Assembly: GCA_948567375.1 (NCBI GenBank)
Contig: OX419759.1
Coordinates: 8,462,744-8,526,743 of the forward strand
Source of the DNA: Lunularia cruciata
Taxonomy: Eukaryota > Streptophyta > Marchantiopsida > Lunulariales > Lunulariaceae
Direction of reading: 5' to 3'
DNA: 64,000 bases
The position numbers and the translations under genes were made by a program. This document shows positions 1,850 through 38,492 of this stretch, in pieces. Below the pieces are notes generated by a model. It searched no databases and was not told the origin of the DNA. It saw nothing but the letters and a program-made list of their open reading frames with translations. Each line of letters opens with the position of its first letter. Position 1 is the stretch's first letter.

Positions 1850-4800
1850 AATTCTTCTAATCATATGCAAAAAATTATCATTAATAATTAATTCTTGATA
1901 TTTATTATATATTAATTACTCTAGAGTGTTGCATAAAACCTAATTTTTATTTCATTCTAATTGGTTAGTCTTTTATTAAAGGAAGATAGTTTTGCAGTAC
2001 ACCAAATGAAGGAGAATTTCCATATTGTATGGAGTTGAGTATTAATAGCTTAGTTTATTTTGGAAGCTATATATACAAGCTAGAAAATATTTATTTTCAA
2101 ATTTAGATACTTCTAAAATGACAAAGTTCTATTACCAAGGCAAATCTAAGTGCATACCTCAAAAGTTGATGAATTTTACCAAAGTATTTGAAGGCGCTTT
2201 CTTGTATATATGTAGAGTATTATTTGAGAATATATTTTCCAAATAATATCATTATGATAGTACTCCTCAATTATATATAGGATGATTAATATTCCAATAT
2301 GAATGATAATTATGACTTTAAAAAAATGATTTTACAGAAAAATACAAAGAGGTTTAACCACAGCATAATATATCAAACTAAGATTTTTCCTTAAAAGTTT
2401 TAAACCAAAATAAAAGAAACTGAACACTAATTTTTAGGATCTTAAAATTAATTTATATTACAATTTAAAATTCCACTAAGAACTATGAATTTTCTTTACA
2501 TATTGATCATACCAATTTATGAAGATTAGGATATTTTTAAATCTGTATCCTTACACATATCAATAACCTAAACCCATGAAACTATATAAAGAAATGCTAA
2601 TAACTATCCAAATAATAATAAATAGTGATAACCCCAACTAAAAGATGGATAAAGAAAGAGATCAATGAAAATCCAACTTATATTATAGTCATTTTTAGTT
2701 AAAAAATATTATCAGTATGTATTAATAATAAATTTTGACTTAATAATTACATACATAATAATTACTACATATATTTAATTTTTTAATATTCACAAAAATT
2801 TCAAATAATTACTTAAATTTATTGATGATAATATTTTGATATTATTTCAGTCCTTGGTTGTAGAAAATAATAATGTAGATTGATTTTTTTAAGGAAAATA
2901 TAAGAGGAATTTTATTTGGAATTTGGTGGAATAATTATAAGAATGGCTTAGGAATGCATAAATATTAACCTTTTAAAGGTTTTCTATTGTGCTATTGAAC
3001 ATAATTTTTAAATATATAAAGGTAAAAGATGTAGATTAAAAAAATTAATAAGAATGGAAAATTTCACAAAAATAATTTGGATTTATTTTTTTATTTATAT
3101 ATTACGTTTTGGATTTATTTTTTTATTTATATATTACGTTTTGTATTTATATATATTATATTTACATATTAGTAATATATTATATCTTACTATATTATTT
3201 CTTATTCAGCTTGTACTCTATAAAGTTGCAAGGCTTGTCTAATTTATTCCTTGACAAGTTCATTATTTCCTAAGGCTTATAAGTTAAAATATAATTGAGT
3301 TTTACATCAATATCTTTGGATCCTTCAACTATCAAATAAATGTTTTATCATGTTATCAACTTAGTATATGAGTATTAACTAATGCCCATGCTCAAAGAAA
3401 TGCATCTCTTAACTCTCATGTTTTTAAAGTATAATTATGGTAATTCAATGTCTACCAAAACATGGTATAATAGCAAGAAATAAGTTGTTCTCTTGAGAAT
3501 ATGGGTTGGAAATTGGTAAATTTGAAGAGGAATGTCACAAATTGCATTTCTTTATTATTACCTATTTAACCTCTTTGGCAGGAACTACTCCCCAAAGAAG
3601 GTAGTATCAGCTCACTATGGCACACTATGACCAATAGAAAACTAAAAGATCACTTTAAATAAGAATAAGTTCCAACTATTTCTTGAAGGTAATGATTCTA
3701 AACTCCAAAAGGGCTACTTCACTATAAAGAATGTGATATACCCCTCTTAGAAGACACAACTCCAAAGGCACTTTGCATTGGTAGTAGGACTTTGCTTTTT
3801 GATTTCATGGTACTTTCAACACTATAGCTCAATTAAGATCAGTCCAGGCATTGCTTTGCTCTTTTAGAACTACCAATCCCAATCCTAGCCCCGAGTAAGA
3901 ATCATCACTCCCACTCAATCACTCAGGTTCTTGCTAAGAAGATTCTGCACCATATTCACCAAAGACATACAACCAATACTCAGAATTTAAGCTAAAGTGA
4001 TGAAATTTTTTTGGCACTATTTCTTTATTCATGTTCAAAAGATTGAATGAAGTATTTACTTGGCTAAATTTTTATATACTCTTTCTAATCTTTTTATATA
4101 CTCTTTCTTTGAGAGAAAAACTAAATCTACCGATTGAGGAAACCCAAATATCTTCTTTGCTCATCCCATTATACATTGATAATTGTTTCTTTGTTTTATC
4201 TTATCTACTCACATGTAGGTAATTAGGCACCTTACACATGTCAAGGAAGGTATCAATTCTTCTCCAAAGATAACTTATAATTTTGTCTCCTTTTGTCTTA
4301 CTACTCCAAAGCTTATATCTACAATGGTCTTACAACTAAGAAGAACTTCTTCAATAAAGGGACTTTGGAATAAAGTAATATTGTGAAGAACTACCTTTGC
4401 CACCATAGACACTAACAAGGAGCTCGGTGCTCTCCTTGTAATTGCTATTCCTAAGAAATAGATGTCATATGTTTCAGTCAATTTTCTATCAATATGCTCT
4501 TGAAGCTTAATTGCTAATTCTTCCATCTTCGCAGCCTTTTATTTTTCCCCTCTAGCTTCTAAACCTAAAACTTCAGCTCATGTAACTTCAACTTCATCAT
4601 TTTACCTAGATTTACCCCACCATAATTTCCAACAAATGATCCCAAACTTCTTCCAATTGATTGAGGATCTTTGCCTTCTCTTCTTTTGAGTTGCTATTCA
4701 AGGCTTGCACTTCCTTTGTCACCTCCTCCAACATTTGAGGTCAATTTGTTGCCTCTTACTCCTTCTCTTTCTTTGCTTCTTTGGCCACCACTTCAAGTTG

Positions 4801-4975
4801 TACGGCAAACCCTTCTTATACTCAAGCATATGCACTCTCAAGATGACTACTCTTACCTTGGTAGTCTCCAACTCTCCCGAAATCCTAACTTTGTACACTT
4901 ACTATTTCTACTTGTGTTCAAATCAAAGTGCTTTCAAGCCTCCTTGTAGCCTCTTAAATATCTTCTTCTAATTCA
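1850..4975. repeat. Unit 1 of a direct tandem duplication of about 3 kb
   Basis: Long blocks recur in the same order and orientation about 2.9-3.1 kb downstream. For example the block at 1,920-2,225 matches 5,045-5,345, the block at 3,360-3,420 matches 6,255-6,320, and the block at 4,640-4,950 matches 7,530-7,860. Similarity is high but clearly diverged, with many substitutions and indels. The left edge lies near 1,850 and the junction near 4,975, where an AT-rich stretch starts again. The right half (about 4,270-4,975) reads on the minus strand like a decayed Glu/Lys-rich coiled coil with several stops. No LTR, transposase or reverse transcriptase is visible in it. Confidence 0.75.
3079..3142. 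repeat. Perfect 32-bp tandem duplication
   Basis: A 32-bp AT-rich unit starting GGATTTATTT and ending ACGTTTT occurs at 3,079-3,110 and immediately again at 3,111-3,142 without visible change. It produces the hydrophobic repeat in a short open frame at 3,054-3,242, which I do not consider a gene. It is absent from duplication unit 2 as far as I can see. Confidence 0.85.
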
Positions 4976-7900
4976 TGTAACAATAAATATTAATCATAAT
5001 GAATAATAATTTATTATATGAATATTTATTCAATTTATATATATAACCCTAGAGTGTTGTGTAAAACCTAATTTTTTATTTCATTCTAATTGGTTCTTAA
5101 AAGAAGATCGTTTTGCAATACAACAAATGAAGGAGAATTTCCATATTGTATGGAGTTTCTTATTAATAACTTATCTTATTTGGAGGCTTTATATACAAGC
5201 TAGAAAATATTTATTTTCAAATTTAGATATTTCTACAGATTACAAAGTTCTATTACCAACGCAAAATTTAAGTTCATACCTCAAAAGTTGATTATTTTAC
5301 CACAGTATTTGAAGGCACTTTCTTGTACATATGTAGAGTACTATTTTAGAATTCTAAACAATATCATTTATGATAGTACTCCTCAATTATATGTAAGATG
5401 ATTCAAATATTCTGCTATGAGTGATAATTATCACTGTACAAAATATGATTTTAGAGAAAAATATAAAGAGGTTTAACCATAGCATAATATATCAAACTAA
5501 TAATTTTCAATAAAATTTGTAAATCAAACTTTAAGATACTGAAGAATAAATTTTAGGATCTTAAAATTAATTTTTAATATAATTTAAACCTCCACTAAAA
5601 AGTATCATTTTTCTTTACATTTGATAATACAATTTTATGAAGATTAGGATATTTTAGAAAATGTATAGTTACACACATAGAAAACCTAAACACATGAGAG
5701 TATATAAAGAAATGCTAATAATATCCAAATAATAATAAATAGTGATAACCCGGTTAAAAGATGGATAAAGAAAGAGAATGTAAACTCAACCTACATTATA
5801 ATGATTTTAGTTAAAAATATATTATCAATAACTATATAGATACTATTTTTAATTTAATAACTATATAAATTATTTCATAGATTTAAAATGAAATATAAAT
5901 ATTAATATAAAAATTAAATAATTACTCATTTTATTTATAATAATAATTTGAAATTATTTCAGTCCTTGGTTGTAGAAAATCATAATATAGATTGATTTAC
6001 TTAAGAGAAATCAACCTTTAATTATATATATAATTTTTAAATAATTCTAGTGTTTTATTGAAAATATTTTTTTAAATATTTAAAAATTAAACATGTAGAT
6101 TTGGAAATTAACAAAAATAGATAAATTCACAAAAAAAAATTAAAATTGTTTATTATTGATATATTATCATATTATTATATTTCATAAATTATATTATTAT
6201 ATTACCATAGTAATATATTATATAAATATAATATTATTTATTATTTAATCATGTTATAATCTTAGTATAAGACTAGTAACTAGTGCTTATGCTCAAAGAA
6301 ATACATCTTTTAACTCTCATGTTTTTAAAGTATAATTGTGGTAATTCAATGTCTACCAAAACATTGGATACCAGTAACAAATAGGTTGTTCCCATGAGAA
6401 TATGGGTTGGAAATGGTTAGATTTCAAAAGGAATGTCACTAATTGCAATTCTTTATTATTACCTATTAAACCTCTTGCGTAGGAACTACTCTCCAAAGAA
6501 GGTAGTATCACTCCCTATGGCACACTATGTCCAATGGGAGACTAAAACATCACTTTCACAAAGAATAAATTCCAACTATATTTCCTAAAGGTAATGATTC
6601 AATAAACTACAAAAGGGTTACTTCACTACAAAGAATGTGTTTTACACTTCATAGAAGGCACAACCATAAAGGCACTTTGCATTGGTAGTAGGACTTTACC
6701 TTTTGATTTTGTGGTACTTTCAACACTATAGCTCACTTAAGACCCTGTCAAGGCATTGCTTTGCTTTCTTAGAACTACCAAGGATCCCAACCCTAGCCTC
6801 AAGTAAGAATCATCACTCCTACTCAATCACTCGGGTTCTTGCTAAGAAAATTCCTCACCATATTCACCAAAGACATACAGCCAATACTCAGAATTCAAGC
6901 AAAAGTGATGAAGGAATTTTGGCTCTATTTCTTTATTCATGTTCAAAAGATTGAATGAATTATTTACTTGGCCAAAGTTTTATATACTTTTTCTACTCTA
7001 AGAGAACTAAATCTAACGGTTGAGGAAGCCAAAATATCTTCTTGGCTCATCCTATTATACATTGATGATTTTATCTTTGTCTTATCTTATCTACTCACAT
7101 GCAGGTAATTATGCACCTTATATATATCAAGGAAGGTATCGATTCTTCTTGAAAGATAACTTATAATTTTTTCTCCTTTGGAGTTACTACTCCAAAGATT
7201 AAATCTATAATGCTCTTACAACTAAGAAGAATATCTACAACTACAAAGAACTTCTTCAATGAATGGACCTTGGAATAAAGTAATATTGTGAAGAACTACC
7301 TTTGCCACTGTAGACACTAACAAGGAGCTTGGTGCTCTCCTTGTAATTTTCTGTTCCTAAGAGGTAGATGTTATATGTTTCAGTCAATTTTCTATCGATA
7401 TGCCCATGAAGCTTATTTGCTAATTAAGTCCATCTTCTCATCCTTGCATTTTCCCTTCCATCTTTTAAACCTAAAACTTCAACTCATGTAACTTCAACTT
7501 CATTATTTTACCTAGATTTACATCCACCATAATTTCCACCAACTGATCCCAAACTTCTTCCAATTGCTTGAGGATCTTTGCCTTCTTTTCTTTCGAGTTG
7601 CTATGCAAGGCTTGCACTTCCTTTGTTACCTCCTCCAAAATTTGAGGTCAATCTGATGCCTTCTACTCCTTCTCTTTCTTCAATTTTTAGCCACCACTTC
7701 AAGTTCTATGGCCAACTCCTTCTTATACTCAAACATATGCATTCTAAAGATGACTACTCTTATCTTGGCAGTCTTCAACTCTCCCCAAATACTAACTACT
7801 TCTTTGTGCAATTATAATTTCTACTTGTGTTCAAATCAAAGGGCTTTCAAGCCTCCTTGCCTCTTAGTATCTTCTTCATATTGCTTTTGGTTTGCAACAA
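4976..7900. repeat. Unit 2 of the direct tandem duplication of about 3 kb
   Basis: This is the second copy of the block at 1,850-4,975. Its left end (4,976-5,060) corresponds to about 1,850-1,925, and it ends where unit 1 ends, near the homologue of 4,960. The sequence then continues past 7,900 into DNA present only once. Unit 2 is slightly shorter than unit 1 and has small indels throughout. The two units probably arose by unequal exchange or a local duplication and then drifted. Confidence 0.7.
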
Positions 7901-13020: not shown

Positions 13021-13025
13021 GTCAG
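13021..13025. repeat. Target-site duplication of element A, left (GTCAG)
   Basis: GTCAG lies immediately before the TGTAAC start of the left LTR and recurs exactly at 18,649-18,653 after the right LTR. A 5-bp duplication is the expected product of Ty3/gypsy integrase and fixes the ends of the element. Confidence 0.95.
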
Positions 13026-13095
13026 TGTAACAATATGGAGTTTAGTGACGAAGTTAGTCGGGCTTACGAAGTAGAGAATAAGACAAAATAGCCTA

Positions 13096-13317
13096 GAATA
13101 TTCTAGAAGCATCTAAGAAGCTTCTTAGGAAGCTTCCCAACTAGTTAACTTGCGCCTTAAGCAGGTAGCTTCTAGAAGGAAGCTTCTAGAAGCTTCTAAC
13201 TAGCTTAGCTTGCACGCCAAGTAGGCGGCTTCTAGAAGGAAGCTTCTTGAGAAGCTTCCTAGTTAACTTGGCTTGCACTCCAAGAAAGCGGCTCAAGGAA
13301 ACTTCTTGAGAAGCTTC
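13096..13317 (+). promoter_or_regulatory. Cluster of heat-shock elements in the LTR promoter
   Basis: Nine exact GAAnnTTC blocks start at 13,096, 13,117, 13,129, 13,179, 13,189, 13,239, 13,251, 13,298 and 13,310. Three TTCTAGAA blocks link or precede them. Two stretches meet the classical heat-shock-factor rule of at least three alternating units at 5-bp steps: 13,096-13,108 (three units) and 13,179-13,196 (four units). The last block ends about 20 bp before the TATA box. Heat-shock factor binding to such arrays is established in eukaryotes, and the Arabidopsis copia element ONSEN is heat-activated through LTR heat-shock elements. Heat induction of this element is inferred. Confidence 0.75.
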
Positions 13318-13336
13318 AAGGGTCTTGTATGCTACC

Positions 13337-13344
13337 TATAAATA
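13337..13344 (+). promoter_or_regulatory. TATA box of the 5' LTR
   Basis: TATAAATA sits about 20 bp after the last heat-shock block and about 110 bp before the LTR end. That leaves room for R and U5. The same box is kept in the other LTRs of the family. Confidence 0.8.
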
Positions 13345-13449
13345 CCAAGGCCGAAGCTCATGCTAGGCATTCAGAGTTTTCCCTCATTCAAGTGTCCCAA
13401 TGTGAGCTTCCATTCTCCTATTTCTCTCCTCGGTTTTGGTCTTTTACAT

Positions 13450-13461
13450 TGGTATCAGAGC
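13450..13461 (+). other. Primer-binding site, initiator tRNA-Met
   Basis: TGGTATCAGAGC begins two bases after the 5' LTR. It is complementary to the 3' end of plant initiator methionine tRNA, the usual primer of plant copia elements and chromoviruses. Copy B has the same sequence on the minus strand at 38,480-38,491. Copy F has a version with a small insertion. Confidence 0.9.
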
Positions 13462-13719
13462 AGGAATGGGATGGATGGAATTTATGGACCACCAAATCCA
13501 CTTCCGCCAAACCATTGGGACTTTCATGTCCAGATATTACCAAAGCATCATTTCACACAATTCATCACCTCACGCTTTGGGCAGGATTTTCTACATATGA
13601 TCACCGTGTTAGAGGAACCCTTGATACTTCCAGTTGTAACTTATGGAGAACGGTGGACGTGTTGTATCTACGTGTTAATCAACTAGATAAATTGCAGGTA
13701 GTGGAATAGAGTAGTAGCG

Positions 13720-14619
13720 ATGGCGGCAATACCGGATGTTATCCTTGCAATGCAACAACAAATCGAGCATCTTACTCGATTGTTGGATGAACGAGACCAG
13801 CAACGACGAGAACAGATAGACAGAGCGCCAGTTCGAGATGGAGAAGATCGCATTCGATTTCCAAAACCCAAGGTGTTTGAAGGCAAGAATCTTCCAGGCA
13901 CAGTGGAGAATTTTGTGTTTGACTATGAACGTTACTTTGAAGCCACCAATCTTCAAGACGAGCGAAAACAAATTCTCTTGGCTTCTAGCCAATTGGATGG
14001 AGTGGCAAAACTTTGGTGGCGATTCCGAGTAGAAAGAGCTGAATGACAAATTGTTACACCAATTTTTACATGGGCAGAATTCAAGGATGCAATACTTGGT
14101 CGATTTCAGACTATAAATGCCACCCGAGCTGCACGGGATAAATTGGCAGAGTTGAGGCAGATTGGCTCAGTGAGAAGCTACATCACACAATTTCAGAATA
14201 TCATCATGCAAATTCCAGATATCCAAGAAGGTGAAGTTCTGGATCGATTTGTGCGAGGATTGAAGTCATGAACCAGATTGGAGGTGATCATGCGAGAGCC
14301 ACAGAATGTAGAACAAGCCATGCAATTGGCTGAGCGTTTTGATTCCTTAGTTGTGACAACTTGGTCTCGACCTCGACCTACACAAAACCCACCAGTACCA
14401 CGAGTGGAAGAACCGGTACCAATGGAGATTGATGCTATCCAACGAAGACCACTTGGCACAGCAGATAGAGAAAGATTACGACAAAATGGAGGTTGTTTTT
14501 ATTGTCGCCAGTTGGGGCATCGCATTGCTGAATGTCCACTCAAGAATGGACGACCTCGACAAGTTGCCCAAGTGGAGGTTGTGGAGCGGAATGATCAGGG
14601 AAATGAGGAATCCCAGTAG
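13720..14619 (+). pseudogene. gag: gag of element A, interrupted by two TGA codons
   Basis: Gag forms the virus-like particle and packages element RNA. The frame starts at ATG 13,720 and, ignoring two internal stops, runs about 300 codons to TAG at 14,617-14,619. The middle part has the usual retrotransposon Gag character (tryptophan-rich WWRF-like step, then the LDRFVRGLKS region). A CCHC zinc knuckle (CX2CX4HX4C) lies at 14,494-14,535. Internal TGA codons lie at 14,044 and 14,269 in the same frame. Copy F has CGA (Arg) at the first site, and copies B and F have AGA (Arg) at the second. The first stop therefore looks like a C-to-T change in a CpG. The terminal TAG is shared by copies A, B and F, so it is probably the genuine end of Gag. 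Confidence 0.85.
14494..14535 (+). other. CCHC zinc knuckle of Gag (copy A)
   Basis: Fourteen codons give C-F-Y-C, four residues, H, four residues, C, which is exactly the nucleocapsid CX2CX4HX4C pattern. All four metal ligands are intact. Confidence 0.9.
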
Positions 14620-15369
14620 GAGATTTCGAGCCGCCTACTGGGAGCTTGATTCGTTCCAATGGGATTGAAGGCTCGACCTATGCAAGTTTGCTTCACTTGC
14701 AAGTTATGATATCTAATCGGGGTTGTAGAATTTTGATTGATTCTAGAAGTTCAGAGAATTGCATGTCTATGCAAGTAGCAAAGGAATTGGGTATTCCTAT
14801 CAAGCCAGTGATTGGAAGTAGTTTGATGATGGCGGATGGTAGAAAGGGTTCTGCATTCCGCACCTCGCATCCTGTTACCTTCAAGATTGGGAAGGAGTAT
14901 TTGGAGTGTATGAGGTTTGTAGTGGCACCTCTACACTATGATATCATTCTGGGTCTACCTTGGCTTGAATGTCATAAGGTTCAATTTGATTGGACCCGAC
15001 ACCAAATTCAAGTACAACACCAAGGTAGGAATTTCCGATTAGGTTGTTTGGCACCTCTGAGTAAGACACCTAAGAATAGTCAGTCCCAAGATGGGAAGTT
15101 TGTCGAGAAGGTAGCCATAGAGCAAATCTGGAAGGGAGATGAGTCCCAAGATGGGAAGTTTGCCAGGAAGGCAACCATGGAGCAAGCTCGGAAGAGAGAT
15201 GAGTCCCTAGAAGGGAAGTTTGTTAATGAAGCAGCCATAGAGCAAGCTTTGGAGCAAGATAAGTCTGTATTTGCAATGTGGATCAAGCCGATTGCACAAG
15301 AACAATCTAAGGAGGGCCAAGTGCCGCATCAAGCGACGGTTGATCGGATAGTTCAAGAGTTTGCAGATG

Positions 15370-15960
15370 TGTTTCCGGATGATCTGCCAAAGGGATTACC
15401 CTCTGATCGAGGTATGCCCTTCAAGATCGAGTTATTGCCAGGGAGTACTCCAATGAGTAGACCAATCTATCGGCTCTCACCAAAGGAGTTGGAGGAGTTG
15501 CGAACAACACTTACAGAGTTGTTGGATAAGGATTTCATACGACATAGTACCTCTCCTTGGGGAGCACCGGTACTATTTGTTCCAAAGAAGGATGGAGGAC
15601 TTTGTTTTTGTATTGATTACCCAGGGCTCAATAAGCAAACCGTGAAGAATGCATATCCCTTGCCTCGGATCGATGACTTGCTTGATCAATTAAGTGGAGC
15701 ACGATACTTTTCCAAGCTAGATCTTCGTAGCGGCTATTGGCAAATTCCTATTGAAGGAGAGGACGTGAAAAAGACTGCCTTTCGTACAAGGTATGGACAT
15801 TTTGAGTGGAGAGTTCTACCTTTCGGACTCACTAATGCTCCAGCAGTCTTCATGGATCAGATGCATCGAGTGTTGGAGGGGCTATTGGATCAGTATGTGG
15901 TAGTGTTCTTAGATGATATCTTAATCTATAGTAGGACTAAGGCAGAACACATGAATCATG
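15370..15960 (+). other. Reverse transcriptase domain of copy A
   Basis: All the usual RT blocks are in order: the entry block with [10 protein letters not shown], the fingers block with FVPKKDGG, the palm [10 protein letters not shown], the [10 protein letters not shown] block and the catalytic FLDD at 15,906. The catalytic aspartates are intact and the frame is open throughout. This domain could be active if the protein around it were made. Confidence 0.93.
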
Positions 15961-17109
15961 TGCGAGAAGTCCTAAGACGACTACGACAGTGGAAATTTTA
16001 CTGCAAGAAGTCAAAGTGTGCTTTTTGGCAAAAGGAGGTTACCTTCTTGGGTCATAAGATCTCATCAGAGGGGATCAAGATGGAAGAAGAGAAGATCAAG
16101 GCCATTACTGATTGGCCTACCCCAAAGGATGCTACTGAAGTACGAGCGTTCAACGGATTGGCCAGTTTTTACCGACGGTTCATCCACTATTATGCTCACG
16201 TGGCTGCACCATTGACTGACCTCTTGGGAAAGAACTCGAGCTTCCAATGGACCACCAAGCATGAAGAAGCATTCCAAAAGTTAAAGCATATGGTGTCTTC
16301 AAGACCCATTCTTCAACCATATGATCCTCAACTACCTTGTGTGGTTGATTTTGATGCTTCTAACTTTGCAATTGGAGCTGTGTTGCAACAAGAATTTCCA
16401 GATGGACTACATCCTATTGCCTTTGTGTCTCGCTGAACAACTTGCAATGGTATATGGAACAACTTGCAATGGTATATGCCACCAAGGTATGGAGGCATTA
16501 TCTCTTGGGGAAACAAGTGATCATGCGAACTGATCACAAGCCATTGTTGCAGACCTTACACCTAGAGCACATGAAGAGTCGACATCATCGATGGGAAGAG
16601 CAACTCCAATTGTTCGACATCAAACTTGAGTACAAACCAGGTCGGTTCCATGTCATCCCTGATGCTCTATCACGACGACCTGATTTGAAGTCTCTTCCTC
16701 TCATCGCGGCAGCAATTACGACGGTGTCAATTGATCCCAAGATTCATAACAAGTTTCGGTTAGCCCTACAACAAGATCCCTTCTTCCAAATGGTACACGG
16801 TCGTCGAACAGCACGCGACAAGGAGTACAACACCTTCTCCTTCAAGGAAGGCCTTTTATTCCATGCAGACCAGATCTATGTTCCAACCAAAGGTGATCTT
16901 CGACTTGTGCGCCTTCAAGAAGCCCATGATTTACCAATAGCTGGTCACATGGGAGTGGACAAGACCTTGGGCACCCTCCAACGCCAATGGTGGTGGCCCA
17001 ACATGACACGAGATGTTTGAGACTTTGTCCGATCATGTGAGAGTTGCCAACGGAACAAGGCCAGCAACCAGAAGCCGAGTGGACTCCTTCAACCACTCGC
17101 CATTCCATC

Positions 17110-17977
17110 CGCTCGTTGGGAGCATGTGAGCTTGGATCTCATCACATCCTTGCCAAAGACAAAACAAGGACACACCGCAATTGTGGTGTTTGTGGATAAG
17201 CTTAGTAAGCAAATCCACTTGGCACCAACCTGTGATACCGTGGATGCTCCAACCTTAGCGCAAATCTACTTCGACAATGTCTTCAAGCATCATGGGATGC
17301 CACGTGTACTCATCTCCGACCGTGATCCTCAGTTTACCGGGAAGTTTTGGCAAGCACTCTTCCAGATACTCGGCACCAAGCTTGCTTTGTCCACGGCCTA
17401 TCATCCTCAAACTGATGGACAAACCAAACGCGCTAATCGTACATTGGAGGATATGTTGCGGGCCTTTGTCAATGTCCACCATACCAACTGGGATGAATGT
17501 CTTGCAGCTGCAAAATTTGCCTACAACAATTCCAAACAGGCAAGCACTGGATTTTCTCCCTTCTTTCTCAATTTTGGCCAAGATCCGCTTGTTCCAGATT
17601 CTCTTCTTGCTTCCCCTCCCTCTCAGGTTCCTCATACTTCTACATTCTTGACCACTATATCCCAATCTCTCCAACAAGCCAAATCTCACCTCCTTGTTGC
17701 TCAGAATCGCCAAAAACAATATGCAGACCATCATCGTCGTGATCTCACCTTTGAAGTTGGTGATAAAGTCATGCTATCCTCTAGTAACCTCCATCTCCCA
17801 CTTGATACCCAAGTTTGTAAACTTGCTCCTAATTGGATAGGACCCTTTGATATCACCCACATTATCTCTCCTGTTGCTTATCGTCTTGCCTTACCTTGTC
17901 ACATGCGTATCCATCCTGTCTTTCACATTTCCAAGTTGAAACCCTTTGTTCCTAACCCTTCTTCCTTTTCCTCTTGA
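17110..17977 (+). other. Integrase core and C-terminal region of copy A, catalytic Glu replaced by Lys
   Basis: The core fold is recognisable, with the first Asp at 17,135, the ISDRD block at 17,312 and the HPQTDGQT block before 17,426. The residue 35 positions after the second Asp is Lys (AAA, 17,426-17,428) where Ty3/gypsy integrases have Glu. Copy B keeps GAA at the equivalent site. The change fits loss of a CpG (CCGAA to CCAAA). The C-terminal GPF/Y-like segment (WIGPFDI) follows near 17,836. Confidence 0.88.
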
Positions 17978-18225
17978 GTCCAACCTCCCCCTCTTCCTGT
18001 CCCTATCAATGATCATGAGGAGTACAAAGTTGATCGTATCCTTGCGCGTCGCCATATTCAACGAGGCCGTCACCAACATACGGAGTACAAGGTCCTTTGG
18101 AAAGGGTATCCCCTTCATGATGCTACATGGAACCTCTTTCTCACCTCCAGAATGCACAGATGGCCATCAAGGAATTCGAAGCTTCACTGGCGACGAGGAC
18201 GTCACCAACTAGCGGCGGAGGAATA
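17978..18225 (+). pseudogene. Chromodomain of element A, frameshifted
   Basis: After the integrase comes a chromodomain with the pattern Y-x-V-D-R-I-L, then Y-K-V-L-W-K-G-Y and D-A-T-W. These are the usual beta-strand and aromatic-cage blocks. Chromodomains of chromoviruses direct integration towards modified histones. A TGA at 17,975 separates it from integrase (copy F has CGA there). Just after D-A-T-W one base is missing compared with copy B, so the last helix is read out of frame. Confidence 0.85.
18211..18225 (+). other. Polypurine tract of element A
   Basis: A purine-rich run (AGCGGCGGAGGAATA) abuts the 3' LTR and is the expected primer site for plus-strand DNA. It lies within the coding frame for the Pol C-terminus. 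Confidence 0.75.
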
Positions 18226-18648
18226 TGTAACAATATGGAGTTTAGTGACGAAGTTAGTCGGGCTTACAAAGTAGAGAATAAGACAAAATAGCCTAGAATA
18301 TTCTAGAAGCATCTAAGAAGCTTCTTAGGAAGCTTCCCAACTAGTTAACTTGCGCCCTAAGCAGGTAGCTTCTAGAAGGAAGCTTCTAGAAGCTTCTAAC
18401 TAGCTTAGCTTGCACGCCAAGTAGGCGGCTTCTAGAAGGAAGCTTCTTGAGAAGCTTCCTAGTTAACTTGGCTTGCACTCCAAGAAAGCGGCTCAAGGAA
18501 ACTTCTTGAGAAGCTTCAAGGGTCTTGTATGCTACCTATAAATACCAAGGCCGATGCTCATGCTAGGCATTCGGAGTTTTCCCTCATTCAAGTGTCCCAA
18601 TGTGAGTTTCCATTCTCCTATTTCTCTCCTCGGTTTTGGTCTTTTACA
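18226..18648 (+). repeat. 3' LTR of element A
   Basis: 423 bp with the same ends as the 5' LTR, differing at five positions by eye (about 1.2%). The heat-shock blocks and TATA box are all retained. The ancestral pol frame runs 66 nt into it, to TAG at 18,289-18,291. Confidence 0.95.
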
Positions 18649-18653
18649 GTCAG
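18649..18653. repeat. Target-site duplication of element A, right (GTCAG)
   Basis: Exact repeat of 13,021-13,025, directly after the terminal CA of the 3' LTR. Confidence 0.95.
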
Positions 18654-23665: not shown

Positions 23666-24341
23666 TGTGAGCCGGCCTGTCTCTCACTAAGGATGAACCT
23701 CTGATGGCTATTATGGTAGTGCACCATGGACTAAGAAGGCAAGGAACCCCAACTCCATCATACTCCTCCAAGGCTAACACTCCAAGACTCAAGACATTGC
23801 TCACTAGAGAACTCAAAGAGAGAGAGATAGTTGCAAATGAAAGGATGATGAGTACCTCCTCATCCCTTGTTTATATATTGTGAAATAGTTATGCACCAAA
23901 GTTACTATTACTGGAGTAACTCAAGTTACTAGGCTAAAAGTCAAGTAAAGTCAAAAAGTAGAAAGGAATATCCATTCACATGGGCATATTCCCCTAAGCA
24001 TGTGGTCTTATCTTGACCCAAGGATTCTTTCACATGGGCTATCCTTAGAATAAAGAAGAATCCAAAAAAAAGGCTTGCGGGCCCAAGAGTTCTCAACTCT
24101 TTCCTGAAAGCCAAACACCTAGGAATAATACCAAGACAACACACTAAAATCCAAAATAGTGGTGCTCATCTTTTCTAGTTCCTCTAAAGTAAGGTCCCCT
24201 CTATCTTAGCTATGACTAATTTCAGCTAACCATGACTAATATAGAACCATCATTTATCTCTATATAAATAATATGTCTTAAGTACTTGTAATACCAAGCT
24301 TAATATCACAATACCACACACATGCACAAATAGGTGTTACA
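23666..24341 (-). repeat. 3' LTR of element D
   Basis: The LTR reads TGTAAC...CTCACA on the minus strand. It matches 30,566-31,246 over its whole length with about two dozen differences and a 4-bp GA-repeat length change. A TATA-like TATATAAA lies at 23,870-23,877 on the minus strand. Confidence 0.93.
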
Positions 24342-24354
24342 TTTACCCCCAAAC
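24342..24354 (-). other. Polypurine tract of element D
   Basis: On the minus strand GTTTGGGGGTAAA abuts the 3' LTR. The run of five G is the likely primer core. Confidence 0.7.
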
Positions 24355-24389
24355 TAAGTTTTCACTTTGTCCTCAAAGTGAAGGTCTCT

Positions 24390-25448
24390 CTACCTTCTAT
24401 GGTATATCTTCAACTTATCATGGTTAATCAGATCAAAGTGTCTTCCTCCCAACTCCTTGAGATCATAGGTGTAATTGCCCCACACCTTCTCCACTATGAA
24501 AGGTCCAAAGTACTTAGACAAAAACTTCTTTTGCACTCTCTTGAATTGAATGGAATCAAACAACATTACCCAATCACCTTCTTTGAAAGGCTCCACTTTC
24601 TTCTTTCCTTGCCTCTTGTCATAGCTCTCCTTTTGTTTCCTTTGGGCTTGCTCTACTCAAACAATAGCAACTGCTCTTGCCTCTTCCAACTCCATGAGTT
24701 GTTCCTTCCTTGACTTCTCTACATCACCTCCTTGTGCTTTCTTCAATCTCCTATGAATGCTTTGGAAGGTAGGAAGATCAAAGTGAATAGGTAAGGTAGA
24801 CTCAATACCATATACCAATTGAAATGTAGAATACCCAATGGAAGTCTTCATGGTTGTCCTGTACTCCCACAAAACTGCATGAATCCTCTTGTCCCAATGA
24901 TGTTTAGCCCCCTCCATTTTTGCATCTTTGGCCAACATCATGCACAAGGTCTGATTGGTTCTCTCTGCCAAGCCATTGGAATTTGGCTTATAGGATGTAG
25001 TTACTCTATGTGTGATAGAGAAATGTTGTAGCATGGCTGTAGTAATGCTTCCTGTAAACTCTCCTCCTCTATTAGAAACCAACTCCAAAGGGCATCCACA
25101 TCTAGTGATAATGCATTCATAAAGAAATCTACCAACTTCATCTTCATTCTTGTCCCTCAATGGTCTAGCCTCAACCCACTTGGTAAGGTAATCAGTAACT
25201 ATCACAATGTTCCGATTGTTCCTCGGGGTTCTATTGAGAGGACCTACAAAATCAATTCTCCACTTCTCAAAAGGTCCTAGCAATGGAATTGATCTAAGTG
25301 GCGGAGTGGATGTAGACTTTCTAGCAAAAGCTTGACAAACATGACAAGTTTTGCAATAATCAAGACAATCCTTGAAATCACTCTCCAATGGTAACCTACA
25401 TCTAGAATCTTGAAAGCAGTCACCTTTCATGCAACGTGTCCTCCACAC
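24390..25448 (-). pseudogene. Integrase of element D with catalytic Asp-to-Asn change
   Basis: The zinc region (C-x2-C near 25,345) is followed by the core: WRIDFVGP with the first Asp, then VSNRGGEF where the second catalytic Asp is replaced by Asn (codon at 25,071-25,073), then LAERTN keeping the Glu. A stop near 24,657 splits off the C-terminal part (24,390-24,596), which has the GPF/Y-like KYFGPF segment. No chromodomain follows before the polypurine tract. An Asp-to-Asn change in this triad normally abolishes strand transfer, so this copy would be integrase-dead even without the stop. Confidence 0.85.
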
Positions 25449-25507
25449 ACTAAACCTTCATGAAACTCCTTTATGAGTGAGATAGACTCTTCCTTACCCA
25501 CTGCTCC

Positions 25508-27583
25508 TCAAAGTAGACCATCTGCTCCTTGGTGAAAAAGAATATCCTCCACCATTGTGTAAGGTCTAGATCTTGCTGCAAGGGCCTTCCTTTCCCTAGC
25601 ATGCATCCCTTCTGGATAGTTACCTCTTGTCACAAAATCCACAATCTCCTTGTACTCCATTGGAACCTCTTGAGTGACTGAGATTGTCATGAGCTCCTCA
25701 TCCGGGAAGGAATCATCCACTGGCTCATCTCCATCATGATCATAGGCCCTAGATAACAAATCAGTATTTGCATGTTTTTTTCCTGGCCTATCCTTAATGG
25801 TATAGTCATACTCAAACAAGAGTATTATCCACCTTGCTAATCTCCCTTCAACATTAGGCTTGTTGAAGATGTACTTCAAAGCCTTGTGATCCGTGACAAT
25901 GGTGGATTTCCCTCCAATCAAGTTGTGTCTAAAATTCTTGAGACCAAAGATCATTGCCAACCCTTCTCTCTCCATGACAGAGTAGTTCTTCTCTATTGAA
26001 ACCATCTGCCTACTAGCATAAGCTATTGGATGATGATGCCCATCTTGGTCTAGTTGACTAAGAGTGCATCCTATAGCTACATTAGAAGCATCAATGTAGA
26101 GGATGAAAGGCTTACTCCAATCAAGTTTAGCAAGAATTGGAGCTACAACAAGGGATTGCTTGAGCTCCTCAAAAGCCTTGAGAGCCTCCTTGTCTTCCAA
26201 AATCACCATGTAATCTACACCCTTCTTCATGTAGATGGTCAATGCATAAGCCTTGTTGGAAAATGAGAAGATGAACTTCCTATAGTACCCAACCATCCCC
26301 AAGAATGTCGTAACTTTGTCAAGCTAGAAGGGAATGGAAGGTCTGAGATTTTCCTCACCTTCTCAGGATCAACTACCATCCTTGGAGATGATATGCCCCA
26401 AAAGTAGACCTTCTTCACATCCAAAAATGCACTTCTCTAGGTTGAGTCATGCATTTGCCTCATCCAAGCATTGCAAGACCTTGATTAGGTGCTCAAAGTG
26501 CTCCTCCTTGCTCCTATAGACACAAAAGTCATCAATGAAGTCTCTCACAATTTTCCCAATGAAAGGTTAAAATACCTTGTTCATGAACCATTGGAATGTG
26601 GTGGGAGCATTGCAAAGCCCAAAAGGCATGACCTTGAAAGCTTAAGTTCCCCAAGGTGTGGTCAATGTGGTGAGTTGTTGATGCTCTGGTGCAATCTTGA
26701 TTTGGTTATATCCACTATAACCATCTCCAAAACTGTACCTCTCATGACTTGCAACCTCCTCCAAGATCTCATCAATGAATGGCAATGGGTAGAAGTCCTT
26801 CTTGGTAACAACATTGAGCTTCTTGTAATCCACACAGACCTGAAGCTTGCCATTCTTTTTCTTCAGAATGACAATTGGAGACACCCATTCTGAATTCTCC
26901 ACCTCAAAGATAAATCTAGCCTCCTTGAGCTTATCAATCTCCTCCTTCACAACCAAAGATATTGGTGGGCTAATGCAATGTTGTTTTTGGCAGATTGGTC
27001 TTGCATGTGACTCTACCTCTATCTTATGCTCCTCCAAGGTGACTTCCTTCAAAACCTTGTAACTAAAAGCAAACACATGGATGAACTTGCGGAAAATCTC
27101 CTCAAATCTCACCTTCTCCTTCTTGGTAACATTTGGACCATACTTGAGCGTAGATAACCTTCTCTCTACCTCCTCAAGTATCAAGGGTGATTTATCTGGG
27201 TCCTTCAAAACCTCTGGCTTAGGTGAAGAATCCATAGCACACAAATGATACACATCTGAATCAGATTCAGATTCATCCTCCTCCGTGGAAGTCTCCTCTT
27301 CCATGCTTGTGTCCACACCTGAAGCTCCTTCTTTAGAATCTGATTCCCAATAATCAGAAGATGGTGTATCTGAATGTGAAGTGTTGGTGGTGTTAGTCAT
27401 AGGAACTGTGACTCTATGGTTTGATGGCCCAATCCTCAAGTACCCTTTGTGCCATCGATCAGTTGTGCTTGCTGCTCTCAACCATGGCCTCCCAAGAAGT
27501 AAGTCATAGCTTGAATCCTTCAAGATTTGGAAAGTCATGAGATTTTGAACTCCCATAACTGAAACTACCACTTTATCCATCAC
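25508..27583 (-). pseudogene. pol: Reverse transcriptase and RNase H of element D
   Basis: RT blocks run from about 27,050 down to 26,300, with YKKLN, GYNQIKIAP, FGLCNAP and the catalytic FIDD at 26,528-26,539. RNase H (26,150-25,750) has the LYIDAS block and TDHKAL. Stops or frame changes near 26,642, 26,550 and 26,310 split it into several pieces. The RNase H to linker part (25,508-26,302) is open for 264 codons. An acidic Glu/Asp/Ser-rich linker (about 27,220-27,400) separates protease from RT. Confidence 0.85.
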
Positions 27584-27800
27584 CCCTACTGGTCAAACTT
27601 GTTGCTTGTTTGCCATGCTCACCACAAATGTTGAAGGTCTTGAGGGTATCATACCCAACTTCTTCATCTACCTTTTTGACATGGCATTTATTGCTGATCC
27701 TCTATCAACCAATGCATCCTTGATGTTGTGACCATTCATTCTCACATCAATCTTGAAGGTATATTCACAAGCCTCTCATGGTGCTGGTTTGGCATCCACC
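27584..27800 (-). pseudogene. Aspartic protease region of element D
   Basis: On the minus strand an ALVDRGSAIN block at about 27,685-27,715 marks the active site. Arg stands between Asp and Gly where Ser or Thr is usual. Downstream VVSMAN and, in the next open segment, LLLGRPWL match the flap and C-terminal blocks of retroelement proteases. Stops near 27,670 and 27,593 interrupt the frame. Confidence 0.7.
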
Positions 27801-28321
27801 ACCCCCATTGATACTAGAGCTTTTACCTTCTTCTTCCTCTTGCTCCTTGTAGAACTCAAACCACCTCTAAGCTCCTTTCTTAAGGTAGGGTTCAAAGCAA
27901 TCAACTGGCCCACTGTGATGTTAGCCTTGTGACTACCAACACCCTCCAACACATTGTAGTTCCATTGTTGCTTTGAAATCAAGAAATCCTCCATCCCCAA
28001 CTTCTACCTTGGAGTCTTTGTTGTCAATGGTGTTGAGGTGCAAGTTCTCTTAGTAGACATAAGAGTATCCTTGCTTGGAGTAAATCCTTGAGAAGAGTGA
28101 ACATCCACTCCAAAACGAGCTCTCTTCTTCTCTTGTGCCAAAAGCTCCAAATTAAGACCCTTGGAGTTTGAGCACTCTCTCTTCTCATAATTGCTCTCAA
28201 CCACATCTATGGATGCTATCCCCTTATCTTTGTTTGGATTAGGAGCCACTTGGGTTTCACTACCTCCCTCTTTCCCTCTATTGGCTCCCTCATAACCCCT
28301 TCCTCCATGGTAAGTGGAATT

Positions 28322-28370
28322 TGGGCAATTCCTTTAGATATGGCCTCTTCTTCCACAACCAAAACAATTT
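28322..28370 (-). other. CCHC zinc knuckle of element D Gag
   Basis: Minus-strand codons give C-F-G-C-G-R-R-G-H, and after an in-frame stop the sequence continues to N-C-P. This reconstructs a CX2CX4HX4C knuckle just after the Gag core and before the protease. Confidence 0.8.
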
Positions 28371-28427
28371 CTATCATTGAAATTGTTGGCTGGTTGGCTT
28401 CCTCTATATGGATAGTTTCCATAACTC

Positions 28428-29063
28428 CTAGGCCCTCTCCCTACATTCTGATCCACCTCTCTCTTCTCCCATAGTTGCATCACATTGATCTTGAGATCCA
28501 TAAGTTGTTTTGTGATGGGTTTGATGTGGATCCTTTGGTGGAGGTGCAAGAACTGGAGCAACTTCTACTTGTGGTGCAACCCTTGCCACCAAAGTATCAG
28601 AAGTTCCACCATACTTGTAACCTTGAGGAGGATGCACAACAACCTTCACCAAATCACTCTCATCCCCTTCCAAACTCTCCTCCATACGAATTGCAATCTT
28701 GATAGCTTCAACCTTGGAAGAAGGTTTCTCATATCTCACCTTGCTTCTTATTTGTGGTCTCAATCCTCCCACAAAATTATTGGTGAGCATGGCCCCTATG
28801 CCAATCATAATAGTTTCCACATCATCCCAACCCTTCCTCAACACTATGCAAAATTTGGACTGTAACTTTTCTACTCTTTCCACATAGACTCTCACTTTCT
28901 CTCCATCTCCTTGTTTGAGAAAGATAACCTCACTCATCAATCTCTCATAACTCTCATCTGGGAGAAAGTTCTCAATGAGTGCTGAAGTCAAACTCTTCTT
29001 TCCCATCTCTCCTCTCTCTCTTTTGGTATTCTCACTCATACCATGTAAGTGCTGATGCAGCAC
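28428..29063 (-). pseudogene. gag: gag core of element D
   Basis: A 211-codon open stretch contains the typical Gag pattern. An ALIENFLPDESYERL block is followed by FLKQGDGEKVRVYVERVEKL, then a GLRPQIRSKVRYEKP block and the helix before the knuckle. The open frame begins inside a perfect 19-bp hairpin (29,036-29,076), so the apparent ATG is not a reliable start. Upstream Gag sequence continues in other frames to about 29,300. Confidence 0.8.
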
Positions 29064-29076
29064 TTACATGGTATGA
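29036..29076. repeat. Perfect hairpin with 19-bp arms inside gag of D
   Basis: Left arm 29,036-29,054 and right arm 29,058-29,076 are exact reverse complements with a 3-nt ATG spacer. It lies where the gag frame begins to be open and is not a known part of gag. Confidence 0.9.
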
Positions 29077-29299
29077 TCCTCCAAGAAATTACCTCCAAGA
29101 AATCTGGTAATAATGAGGCCCACTCATTCTTCCTCCTCTCATTGTTTCCTATGCAAGCTCTTGAAGTCTCTCACAAAGACCTCCACATCTTCTCCATCCT
29201 TGCCAAAGAAAACCGGAAGTTTCTCCATCTTAACCTCTCACTATCTTTCTTTCTCTCAAATTTTTTTCTCTTTTCTTTTCTCTCACTCTATAACTAATA

Positions 29300-30540
29300 G
29301 AGTATGCACATGACTAACACCATTTGAAATTAATCCACTCTAGGGAATACAAAAGGCTTAGGTTGCTCCAAGATTTCTATAGCAACATCAAATCCTAGAG
29401 TGCATATTAACCAAACCCTCATAGTTTATCCATAAGTTGAAAGATTATCTCCATCATTAATCTTGACAACTAGCTGATGAAGGTGGTAGTATTTATGTAG
29501 CTATACTAAGACTCTCTCTAAGATCCTTCACCAAAGTCTCTAGAAGTGCTTTTACTCCACTACACTCATGTCTTTTGGAAGTCCTTCCACTCACAAACCT
29601 CATACAACTCCTTGGTCTTAGATCTTCTCCCTCCTAATCTTGGTGAAGAAGGTACAACATGCAAACCCAAGTCAAGTAAGCCTCTCCTTTCCCTCAATCT
29701 CTTGCTCTCAAAGGTCAATGGACATGAACTTGCCTTATGTCCCTTCTCTCCACATAGAAAGCACTTAGACTCACTCTTTCCTCCAAGTGGTGTACGTTTT
29801 TGGATCCTCTCAACCCCTTCCTCACAATTTCACTCAAATTTGTCAACTTGTATGTGACAGTCCTCTGAAATTTTTCCCACTTGATCACAACTTTAGGGCG
29901 TCACTCCTTTCATCAAGCCATTTGACCTAGACACTTTTCTATTCAGCACACATATTTTAGATTTGGTCTGAAAACCACCCCCTCACTTCAAAAACTCATT
30001 ACTCCTTGCTTAAGAATGATCTCTCTCTAATTTTGTGTCATCAGGTAGGATATAAAATACTGAATTTTCTTGGAAAGTTTTAGAACAATCCACTAAATTG
30101 AAGAAATGGCAGACTCTGTAAAATTTTCCAGAGAGCATGTAGTTGCATGAGCACTTTACCCTATCAACTTTCAAAAATTCAAGCCCAATGCACATAATAA
30201 GTCTCAAAATAATTCCAAGTGTGCTAACTAAAGGACAATGCAAGCTATCATGTGTAGAAATTTCAAGTTCAGATCTCAAACTTGAGATTTTGCCCAAAAT
30301 CACCTTAATCCCCAAAATTTGCAATCCACCTCACACAATCTCTCCAAATCCTCTCATGTGTATAAGATGTAACAAATCACCTCAAAGACATCATAATGAA
30401 CTATAGGGTATACAAATAGATCTTGGTTCTCTAACATAAGTTTAGCCCTCTCCTCTCCTAATGTTCTCTCTAATTGAGCTCTCATAGTCTCATTCTACCT
30501 AATGTAGAATTGAACATGGAACATTATCTTGCCTTCTAGA
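29300..30540 (-). other. Leader of element D with an extra CCHC knuckle
   Basis: About 1.2 kb lies between the 5' LTR and the recognisable gag. Most is without domains. At 29,722-29,763 the minus strand encodes a complete CX2CX4HX4C knuckle (C-F-L-C ... H ... C), preceded by a Lys/Ser-rich linker. It sits upstream of the normal Gag core, so it is either a second Gag remnant, a rearranged piece or a captured sequence. Confidence 0.6.
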
Positions 30541-30561
30541 GATGTCCTGGCAACAGAACCA
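30541..30561 (-). other. Candidate primer-binding site of element D
   Basis: On the minus strand, a few bases after the 5' LTR, the sequence begins TGGTTCTGTTGCCAGG. It starts with TGG and resembles in spacing the elongator-tRNA primer sites used by Athila/Tat-type elements. It is not the tRNA-Met site. The exact tRNA could not be assigned. Confidence 0.5.
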
Positions 30562-30565
30562 AAAA

Positions 30566-31246
30566 TATGAGCCAGCCTGTCTCTCACTAAGGATGAACCT
30601 CTGATGGCTATTACGGTAGTGCACCATGGACTAAGAAGGCAAGGAACCCCAACTCCATCATACTCCTCCAAGGCTAACACTCCAAGACTCAAGACATTGC
30701 TCACTAGAGAACTCAAAGAGAGAGAGAGAGATAGTTGCAAATGAAAGGATGATGAGTACCTCCTCATCTCTTGTTTATATATTGTGAAATAGTTACGCAC
30801 CAAAGTTACTATTACTGGAGTAACTCAAGTTACTAGGCTAAAAGTCAAGTAAAGTCAAAAAGTATAAAAAAATATCCATTCACATGGGCATATTCCCCTA
30901 AGCATGTGGTCTTATCTTGACCCAAGGATTCTTTCACATGGGCTATCCTTGGACTAAAGAAGAATAAAAAAAAAAAGGCTTGCGGGCCAAAGAGTTCTCA
31001 ACTCTTTCTTGAAAGCCAAACACCTAAGAATAATACCAAGTCAACACACTAGAATCCAAAATAGTGGTGCTCATCTTTTCTAGTTCCCCTAAAGTAAGGT
31101 CCCCTCTATCTTAGCTATGACTAATTTCAGCTAACCATGACTAATATATAACCATCCTTTATCTCTATATAAATAATATCTCTTAAGTACTTGTAATACC
31201 AAGCTAAATATCACAATACCACACACATGCACAAATGGGTGTTACA
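30566..31246 (-). repeat. 5' LTR of element D
   Basis: Full-length match to 23,666-24,341. A TATATAAA-type box lies at 30,774-30,781 on the minus strand. A solo copy of the same LTR lies in element B (34,149-34,838). Confidence 0.93.
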
Positions 31247-32874: not shown

Positions 32875-33234
32875 TATAAAAGATAGACCAAGGAGAGAAA
32901 TAGGAGAATAGAAACTCACATTAGGACACTTGAATAAGGGAAAATTCCAAATACCTAGCATGAGCTTTGGCTTTGGTATTTATAAGTAGCATACAAGGCC
33001 CTTGAGAAGCTTCTCAAGAAGCTTCATTGACCCGCTTTCTTAGAATGCAAGCCAAGTTAACTAGGAAGCTTCTCAAGAAACTTCCAGAAGATACTTGCTT
33101 GGAGTGCAAGATAAGCTAGTCGGGAAGCTTCCCAAGAAGCTTCCTAGATGTTTCTGGAATATTTTAGGCTAATTTGGCTTATTCTCTACTTTGTTAACCT
33201 TACTAATTACGTTGTTAAACTCCATATTGTTACA
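32875..33234 (-). repeat. 3' LTR of element B
   Basis: 360 bp, shortened by internal deletions in the GAAGCTTC-rich part. Its outer end has TA instead of TG. The TATA box and part of the heat-shock-like array remain. Confidence 0.9.
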
Positions 33235-37342: not shown

Positions 37343-38221
37343 GTTTCCCTAATCATTCCGCTCCACAAAATCCATCTAGGCAACTTGTTGAGGTCGCACA
37401 TTCTTGAGTGGACATTCAGCAATGTGATGTCCCAATTGGTGATAATGAAACAACCACCATTTTGTCATAATTTCTCTCTATTTACAATGCCAAGTGGTCT
37501 CCGTTGAATGGCATCAATCTCCAATAGTGCCGGCTCCTCCACCCGTGTGTAGTGTATTGGTAGGTTTTGTGGAGGTCAAGGTCAAGATCAAGTTGTTGCA
37601 ACCAAGGAATCAAAACATTTGGCCAACCACATGGCTTCCTCCAAGTGTTGTGGCTCTTGCATGGTTACCTTTAATTTGGTTCTTGACTTCAAGCCCCTCA
37701 CAAATTGATCTTGAGATTCACCTTCCAATATATATGGAATTTGCATGATGGTGTTTTGGAATTGTGTGATGTAACTTCTTATATAGTCAACTCTGCCAAC
37801 CTATCCCGTGCAACTTGTGTGGTATTTATAGCTTGGAACCAACTAATTATTGCACTCTTGAATTTTTCACACGTCAAGATTGGTGTAACAATTTTTTGTT
37901 AAGCTTGCTCTGCTCAGAATCTCCACCATAGCTTTGCTACTCCATCCAATTGACTAGAAACCAAGAGTATCTTTTTTTTCTCATTTTGTAGATTAGTAGT
38001 TTCAAAATAACGTTCACAGTCAAACACAAAATTCTCCATTGCACCCAAGAGATTCTTGCCTTTAAATACCTTGGGTTTAGGAAATCGGATTTGATCTTCT
38101 CCTTCTCGAATTGGTACTCTCTCTATGTGATCTTGTCATTGAAGATCTCATTCATCCAACAATCAAGTAAGGTGCTTGATTTGTTGTTGCATAGCAAGGC
38201 TAACATCAGCATTGCCACCAA
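37328..38221 (-). pseudogene. gag: gag of element B
   Basis: Collinear with gag of A, with the same TAG end (37,328-37,330). The position of the start ATG now reads TTG (38,219-38,221) and a small deletion follows. The zinc-knuckle region (about 37,420-37,465) and the arginine-rich linker are still recognisable. Several stops and indels are present. Confidence 0.8.
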
Positions 38222-38479
38222 GGTTGATACTCTATCATGCCACCCCTAATCTATCTAATTAATTAACACATAGAAGAAACACATCCACCATTCTGCAAAG
38301 GCTACAATCGGAAGCACCAAGGGTTCCTTAGATATGGTGATCATAAGCAAAATATCTTGTCCAAAGTGTGAGGTGATGAATTGGGTGAAACGATGCTTGG
38401 GTAGTACTTGGACGCAGAAATACCAATGGTTTGGTGGAAGTGGATTTGGTGTTCCATAAATTCCATCCATCCCATTCAT

Positions 38480-38491
38480 GCTCTGATACCA
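38480..38491 (-). other. Primer-binding site of element B, tRNA-Met
   Basis: The minus strand reads TGGTATCAGAGC, identical to that of copy A, one base from the LTR. Confidence 0.9.
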
Positions 38492-38492
38492 A

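Follow-up and report, generated by a model that had tools for sequence, protein, structure and literature searches.

The liverwort Lunularia cruciata carries, on contig OX419759.1, an LTR retrotransposon whose promoter region is dense with heat-shock elements (HSEs). The question raised by this locus is whether these motifs form a promoter that answers to the host heat-shock factors (HSFs) or have another origin. The analysis covered 64,000 nucleotides of the contig (the window), and coordinates are counted from its first base.

Structure and coding capacity of element A

The HSE-bearing retrotransposon, here element A, is a 5.6-kb Ty3/gypsy chromovirus at 13026-18648 (+) with the following parts:

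13021-13025 (+), right copy 18649-18653: target-site duplication (TSD) GTCAG, the same five bases on both flanks
13026-13448 (+): 5' LTR (TGTAAC...TTTACA), 423 bp, pairing with 18226-18648
13337-13344 (+): TATA box TATAAATA, invariant across the six LTRs of the family in the window
13450-13461 (+): primer binding site TGGTATCAGAGC, recognized by sequence inspection
13702-14619 (+): gag region, capsid and CCHC zinc knuckle in a single frame (Retrotrans_gag E 8.5e-13, zf-CCHC E 8e-5)
14607-16436 (+): protease, reverse transcriptase and first part of RNase H (gag-asp_proteas 1.9e-6, RVT_1 1.9e-36, RT_RNaseH_2 6.4e-19)
16364-17977 (+): remainder of RNase H, integrase H2C2, core and SH3_Tf2-1, in two frames (Pfam E values: RT_RNaseH 1.6e-10, Integrase_H2C2 1.2e-11, rve 3.7e-8, SH3_Tf2-1 7.3e-19)
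17978-18226 (+): chromodomain (Pfam Chromo E 3.2e-9), with a same-frame stop at 17975-17977 directly upstream
18226-18648 (+): 3' LTR with the same nine GAAnnTTC blocks, a three-unit array at 18296 and a four-unit array at 18379

The primer binding site is one that we take to be of the initiator-Met tRNA type. The LTRs are of the TG..CA form with a TSD, and the Pfam domains run in the order PR-RT-RNaseH-INT. This Ty3/gypsy order places the element outside ONSEN/COPIA78, which belongs to the Ty1/copia superfamily. An earlier note on this DNA, made from the sequence alone, had described a chromodomain Ty3/gypsy element with nearly identical LTRs. Both statements were borne out, the first by the set of Pfam matches from gag to Chromo in Ty3/gypsy order and the second by identity at 418 of 423 bp (5 mismatches, 13026-13448 against 18226-18648).

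The coding region of element A is broken. Two in-frame stops interrupt gag (14044-14046 and 14269-14271), the PR-RT frame ends in a 22-bp tandem duplication (16435-16478), and the chromodomain follows the stop noted above. All three elements of the family in the window also carry a 60-bp tandem repeat (20 codons, 2.3-3.0 copies) in the linker that joins protease to reverse transcriptase (15082-15248, 36923-37064 and 44117-44294).

In an alignment to CDYL chromodomains, with which its EYKVDRIL and LWKGYP stretches line up, the chromodomain of element A retains the Y, W and Y aromatic positions. The first and third conserved aromatic residues that characterize group I chromodomains are both present, where the number borne by each residue in element A is our assumption. 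Retention of the three aromatic residues makes targeting to methylated histones plausible. According to the available text of PMC3350952, group II chromodomains lack Y24 and usually Y48, and the group I chromodomain of MAGGY binds H3K9me2/3. The same source places plant group I chromodomains in non-seed plants, in chromoviruses of the Tcn1-like and SM-Galahad types, which resemble element A in this respect, and also in green algae; its available text describes no promoter for these chromoviruses. Among the relatives of element A described below, the Pfam Chromo match in element B covers the second part of the domain only (E 1.1e-6, in a separate stretch); in element C a Pfam Chromo search up to E 0.1 returned no match, and the motif is visible by eye in the integrase frame. 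Given the group I residues, an integrase directed to heterochromatin is plausible for the family, excluding the broken copy A. The proposal in the earlier note that the element combines stress-timed transcription with chromodomain-directed integration does not hold for copy A itself, because a stop precedes its chromodomain and further coding parts are disrupted.

Heat-shock elements in the U3 region

The nine perfect GAAnnTTC blocks reported for the 5' LTR were all found, with starts at 13096, 13117, 13129, 13179, 13189, 13239, 13251, 13298 and 13310, together with four TTCnnGAA blocks. The last GAAnnTTC block ends at 13317, leaving 19 bp to the TATA box TATAAATA at 13337, close to the 20 bp that had been estimated. 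The blocks are arranged as follows:

13096-13108 (+): perfect three-unit HSE (3P) GAATATTCTAGAA, 5' of the 60-bp repeats
13117-13317 (+): 60-bp tandem repeat, about 3.3 copies (Tandem Repeats Finder and unit alignments), containing eight of the nine GAAnnTTC blocks
13117-13136 (+): GAAnnTTC pair, 12 bp apart, outside the 5-bp register
13170-13196 (+): TTCtaGAA, then a perfect four-unit HSE (4P) GAAGCTTCTAGAAGCTTC at 13179-13196
13230-13258 (+): TTCtaGAA and two GAAnnTTC, irregularly spaced
13298-13317 (+): GAAnnTTC pair, 12 bp apart, ending 19 bp 5' of the TATA box

The claim of canonical arrays stands for 13096-13108 (three units) and 13179-13196 (four units); the other blocks are pairs off the 5-bp register, that is, irregularly spaced sites and not canonical arrays. 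A 14-bp repeat unit at 13163-13192 overlaps the 4P region. Because eight of the nine blocks lie within the 60-bp tandem repeat, they are partly copies of one another, and this rules out counting them as nine independent sites. The repeat, which inflates the GAAnnTTC count, was absent from the earlier note, as were two diverged copies of the element and the liverwort identity of the host. A second recurring motif, CTTGCA..CCAAG, occurs in the 60-bp units (13143-13322); variants of it are present in every one of the six LTRs, and it is a possible regulatory site.

Even with a single repeat unit, the HSE arrays in the U3 of element A are far above chance. In 5000 dinucleotide shuffles of the 5' LTR, nine blocks were never reached (mean 0.21), and three 3-unit starts and one 4-unit array were each equaled once. 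When one repeat unit was kept (13026-13202 joined to 13318-13448; 20000 shuffles), neither the five remaining blocks nor the three 3-unit starts were matched, and one 4-unit array appeared in 1/20000. With the third repeat unit alone kept, the corresponding figures were 4/20000 for three blocks and 127/20000 for one 3-unit start. The 3P upstream of the repeat was matched in 17/20000 shuffles of 13026-13116.

Across the whole 64 kb, the three-unit starts number 12, in nine distinct arrays, and the four-unit arrays 3; all of them lie within the six LTRs of this family. The remaining 61,542 bases of the window contained no three-unit start (mean 1.3 in 30 shuffles), 25 GAAnnTTC against 25.5 expected and 29 TTCnnGAA against 25.7 expected. 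A control LTR family (matched parts 23817-24341 and 30721-31246, ends undefined) had no GAAnnTTC and no three-unit array in those parts and one TTCnnGAA per matched part, a thin comparison with a single family.

Among other features of the window, the second LTR retrotransposon to which these matched parts belong, at 23817-31246 (-), has its repeats 6.9 kb apart and contains pieces of gag, RT, RNase H and integrase. Direct repeats at 3343-7240, 86-90% identical and 2.9 kb apart, lie in the left part of the window, which is AT-rich. At 59545-60870 lies an F-box ORF with 82% identity to M. polymorpha MPTK1_6g17030; in each of two Riccia species, its identity to the top-matching protein is 66-73%. 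These identities fit a marchantioid liverwort as host.

Diverged relatives and half-site conservation

Two diverged relatives of element A are present in the window, both older by LTR divergence, and the element B pair is the most diverged:

32875-38905 (-): element B, LTRs B5 at 38493-38905 and B3 from about 33234; LTR identity 84.5%; TSD GGAGT
38747 (B5) and 33077 (B3) (-): 3P arrays of element B, one per LTR
39964-46333 (-): element C, LTRs C5 at 45930-46333 and C3 at 39964-40389; LTR identity 93.8%; no clear TSD in its flanks
46251 (C5) and 40307 (C3) (-): 3P arrays of element C; 40218 (C3) (-): 4P array, the same one as in element A

Element B is interrupted at 34150-34838 by a segment whose pieces match the control LTR family (23.7-24.3 kb and 30.6-31.2 kb); the flanking element B coordinates overlap by 5 bases, and the segment resembles a solo LTR inserted into B. 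Element C contains a tandem duplication at 41764-42058 (156-bp unit, 1.9 copies).

At least one perfect three-unit array is present in each of the six LTRs, despite differences of 9-17% between elements. The two LTRs of element A (A5 and A3) and C3 each have one 3P and one 4P; C5, B5 and B3 each have one 3P. At least one perfect 3P or 4P, as expected of an HSE-driven LTR promoter of the ONSEN type, thus occurs in 6/6 LTRs. GAAnnTTC counts were 9 in A5, 9 in A3, 7 in C3, 5 in C5, 6 in B5 and 7 in B3, with one of the seven in B3 lying 3' of the TATA box. At the 4P site, B5 has three units, and element A and C3 show a fourth unit and 14 extra bases; in the alignment C5 is without 10 of these 14 columns and B3 has a larger gap. 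Because B5 has three units only at this site, a local 14-bp duplication is a likely source of the four-unit array, the alternative being loss in B5.

Searches beyond the window yielded no relatives in IMG/VR. The PR-RT piece of element A found none there. A 16-base U3 pattern occurred in 23 IMG/VR contigs, and blastn of the element A LTR against these 23 loci (224,076 bases) found nothing at E values up to 1e-3. With the cutoff raised to E 10, the ten matches listed were 17-21-base stretches around the pattern; the contigs were therefore taken as chance matches and rejected as relatives. A 978-residue chromovirus-type pol (P0123; RT, RNase H, integrase, Chromo) is filed under a Blastococcus metagenome bin, possibly as eukaryotic contamination.

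Conservation of the HSE half-sites was compared in eight between-element LTR pairs, with A3 left out. Half-site columns differed in 24 of 446 compared cells (5.4%), the nn spacers in 26 of 167 (15.6%) and the other U3 positions in 270 of 1607 (16.8%). None of the half-site columns is a CG or CHG position. After control for CG, CHG and CHH context, 6 half-site changes were counted against 18.6 expected, and 10 spacer changes against 7.9 expected. Before insertion, there were 2 half-site changes against 8.0 expected, a deficit reached in 3/1000 neutral simulations; after insertion there were 4 against 9.6 (55/1000), and the two deficits jointly were reached in 0/1000, where the simulations themselves average 0.86 of the half-site expectation, a small method bias. 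Spacer changes numbered 1 against 2.9 expected before insertion and 8 against 4.6 after it.

A version of the half-site test with cores defined in one partner of each pair is biased and was set aside. It was replaced by third-party and union core definitions, the spacer comparison, the context control and the neutral simulation. With union cores, 1-20 of 314 circular shifts did as well for the 12 between-element pairs and B5-B3; for C5-C3 the figure was 68 and for A5-A3 174. Restricted to bases common to both LTRs of each element, the values were 2/314 (A-C), 16/314 (A-B) and 49/314 (C-B), and third-LTR-defined cores gave 1-73/314 in 11 comparisons. The weak cases were A5-C3 with B3-defined cores (61/314), C5-C3 with A5-defined cores (73/314) and the shared bases of C versus B (49/314).

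All of these statistics rest on three elements, small counts and non-independent pairs, and within that frame the half-sites appear to be under constraint in the transposing lineage. Conserved half-sites around freely changing spacers are what recognition by HSFs would predict. The pre-insertion deficit matches selection for a working promoter, and the post-insertion deficit is borderline. Since selection for transposition cannot act after insertion, the conservation at that stage means that part of the signal may reflect mutational bias or concerted evolution of the repeats.

A putative heat-shock-factor promoter and its alternatives

We consider it rather likely that the U3 of this Lunularia chromovirus is an HSF-responsive promoter; the putative promoter is probably functional, and a response to heat is its likely outcome. 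A dense row of HSEs kept in three copies of different age suggests an element switched on by the heat or stress response. The earlier note had read the family as HSF-driven, and arrays above chance, their recurrence in each of the six LTRs of the three elements and the greater conservation of half-sites than of spacers speak for that part of its reading; the heat response itself stands as a prediction. Trimers of host HSFs would bind the perfect three- and four-unit arrays and, by cooperation, probably also the irregular pairs between the arrays and the TATA box. RNA polymerase II would then transcribe the element under heat or another HSF-activating condition, from a start predicted below the TATA box at 13337. 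Growth of the 60-bp repeat in U3 would have multiplied the sites, and the 14-bp duplication is a likely origin of the 4P. Along with HSF binding and heat induction, we infer that heat-induced transcription helped the family to amplify.

Against the HSF-responsive promoter count the weak points of the conservation statistics given above, among them the scarcity of spacer changes, too, before insertion, and two further observations. HSFs give no account of the CTTGCA..CCAAG motif in the 60-bp repeat, and a chromodomain element of a moss behaves in the opposite way. Physcomitrium RLG1 and RLG2 are, like element A, bryophyte Ty3/gypsy elements; RLG2 responds to heat and ABA with strong induction, and RLG1, the one with a chromodomain, is repressed by heat shock (PMC7466625). 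The available text of that paper describes no HSE arrays in either element, and its main text is without the word "motif".

A sub-case of HSF control, which we regard as possible but doubtful, is that the sites serve mainly non-heat cues that act through HSFs, such as desiccation, ABA, oxidative stress or development. The response of RLG2 to ABA and heat alike fits this, as does the ranking of dehydration and, to some extent, heat among the frequent stresses of the moss by the RLG2 authors (available text of PMC7466625). M. polymorpha has only 3 Hsf genes (available text of PMC6563006), from which each Hsf may serve several cues. The Brassicaceae 3P and 4P arrays, however, track heat induction (available text of PMC5059998).

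It is improbable that the blocks are a by-product of tandem-repeat growth in U3 combined with slow change of A/T and CHH-context bases and have no present HSF function. About 3.3 copies of a 60-bp repeat, half-site columns free of CG and CHG and some post-insertion conservation would be expected on that account, but the 13096-13108 array lies outside the repeat, the spacers within these blocks and repeats keep pace with the background in their changes, and the half-site deficit survives the context control. Slightly less probable still is that the 60-bp units work as an enhancer for a different factor, which would read AAGCTT or CTTGCAnnnCCAAG palindromes and leave the HSE match incidental. 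Such a factor could draw on the recurrence of CTTGCA..CCAAG in the units and on the 24 AAGCTT and 15 AAGnnnCTT in U3 across the four counted LTRs. Many of these AAGCTT, however, are the inner part of GAAGCTTC, and GAAnnTTC tops the 384 gapped three-base palindromes counted (28 occurrences in A5, C3, B5 and B3). The inner two bases, moreover, vary across blocks and LTRs (GAAACTTC, GAAATTTC, GAAGTTTC, GAATATTC, TTCCGGAA), which a reader of AAGCTT would not tolerate. A bZIP (TGACG) reading was rejected, with TGACG/CGTCA found in 3/6 LTRs only and at no common repeat position.

The HSF-responsive promoter favored here has counterparts in known systems. HSEs in LTRs are already known from ONSEN, COPIA37 and TERESTRA, and putative HSEs in a Ty3/gypsy element from the fungal TCN3. 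ONSEN/COPIA78, COPIA37, TERESTRA and ROMANIAT5 resemble element A in having perfect three- or four-unit nGAAn arrays in the LTR promoter. In the available text of PMC5059998, 3P arrays of Brassicaceae COPIA elements are associated with up to about 100-fold and 4P arrays with up to about 1000-fold heat induction, 4P binds two HSFA2 trimers and 3P one, and the 4P of ONSEN arose by duplication of a proto-element, a local duplication like the one that is the likely origin of the four-unit form in the liverwort element. The Brassicaceae families are Ty1/copia elements of angiosperms whose heat induction was measured, whereas element A is a liverwort Ty3/gypsy chromovirus known here from its sequence, and it differs from them in having several arrays inside a 60-bp U3 repeat. 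Cryptococcus TCN3 shares the Ty3/gypsy type with element A; it was observed to transpose at 37 C only, and its LTR has two putative HSEs (available text of PMC12810828). TCN3 differs in its fungal host (as does TCN12) and in having two putative HSEs where element A has arrays in tandem repeats, and the word "chromodomain" is absent from the main text of the TCN3 paper. Heat-related Ty3/gypsy transcription is also listed for Scots pine, Cryptomeria and others (available text of PMC9780303). Among the open-licence PMC matches listed, as far as their text was available, the documented HSE-driven plant retrotransposons with mapped arrays are angiosperm copia elements; those matches included no report of HSE arrays from the LTR of any plant chromovirus, nor one of a liverwort retrotransposon that responds to heat.

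We propose tentatively that, in this liverwort chromovirus lineage, an unusually dense HSF array, built up through U3 repeat growth and local duplication, and a chromodomain that would read H3K9me couple stress-timed transcription to steered integration. If so, pulses of activity could track episodes of heat or drought in the host, and HSF-responsive enhancers could be carried into or near heterochromatin. Bursts of Ty3/gypsy elements are reported in Lunularia (available text of PMC9985172), and a liverwort would offer a simple, haploid and transformable setting in which to test stress-driven bursts of this kind. HSEs would then have been captured independently by LTR elements of a second superfamily and in a bryophyte lineage, and an HSF-driven liverwort chromovirus would be a case of convergence on the host switch that angiosperm copia elements use.
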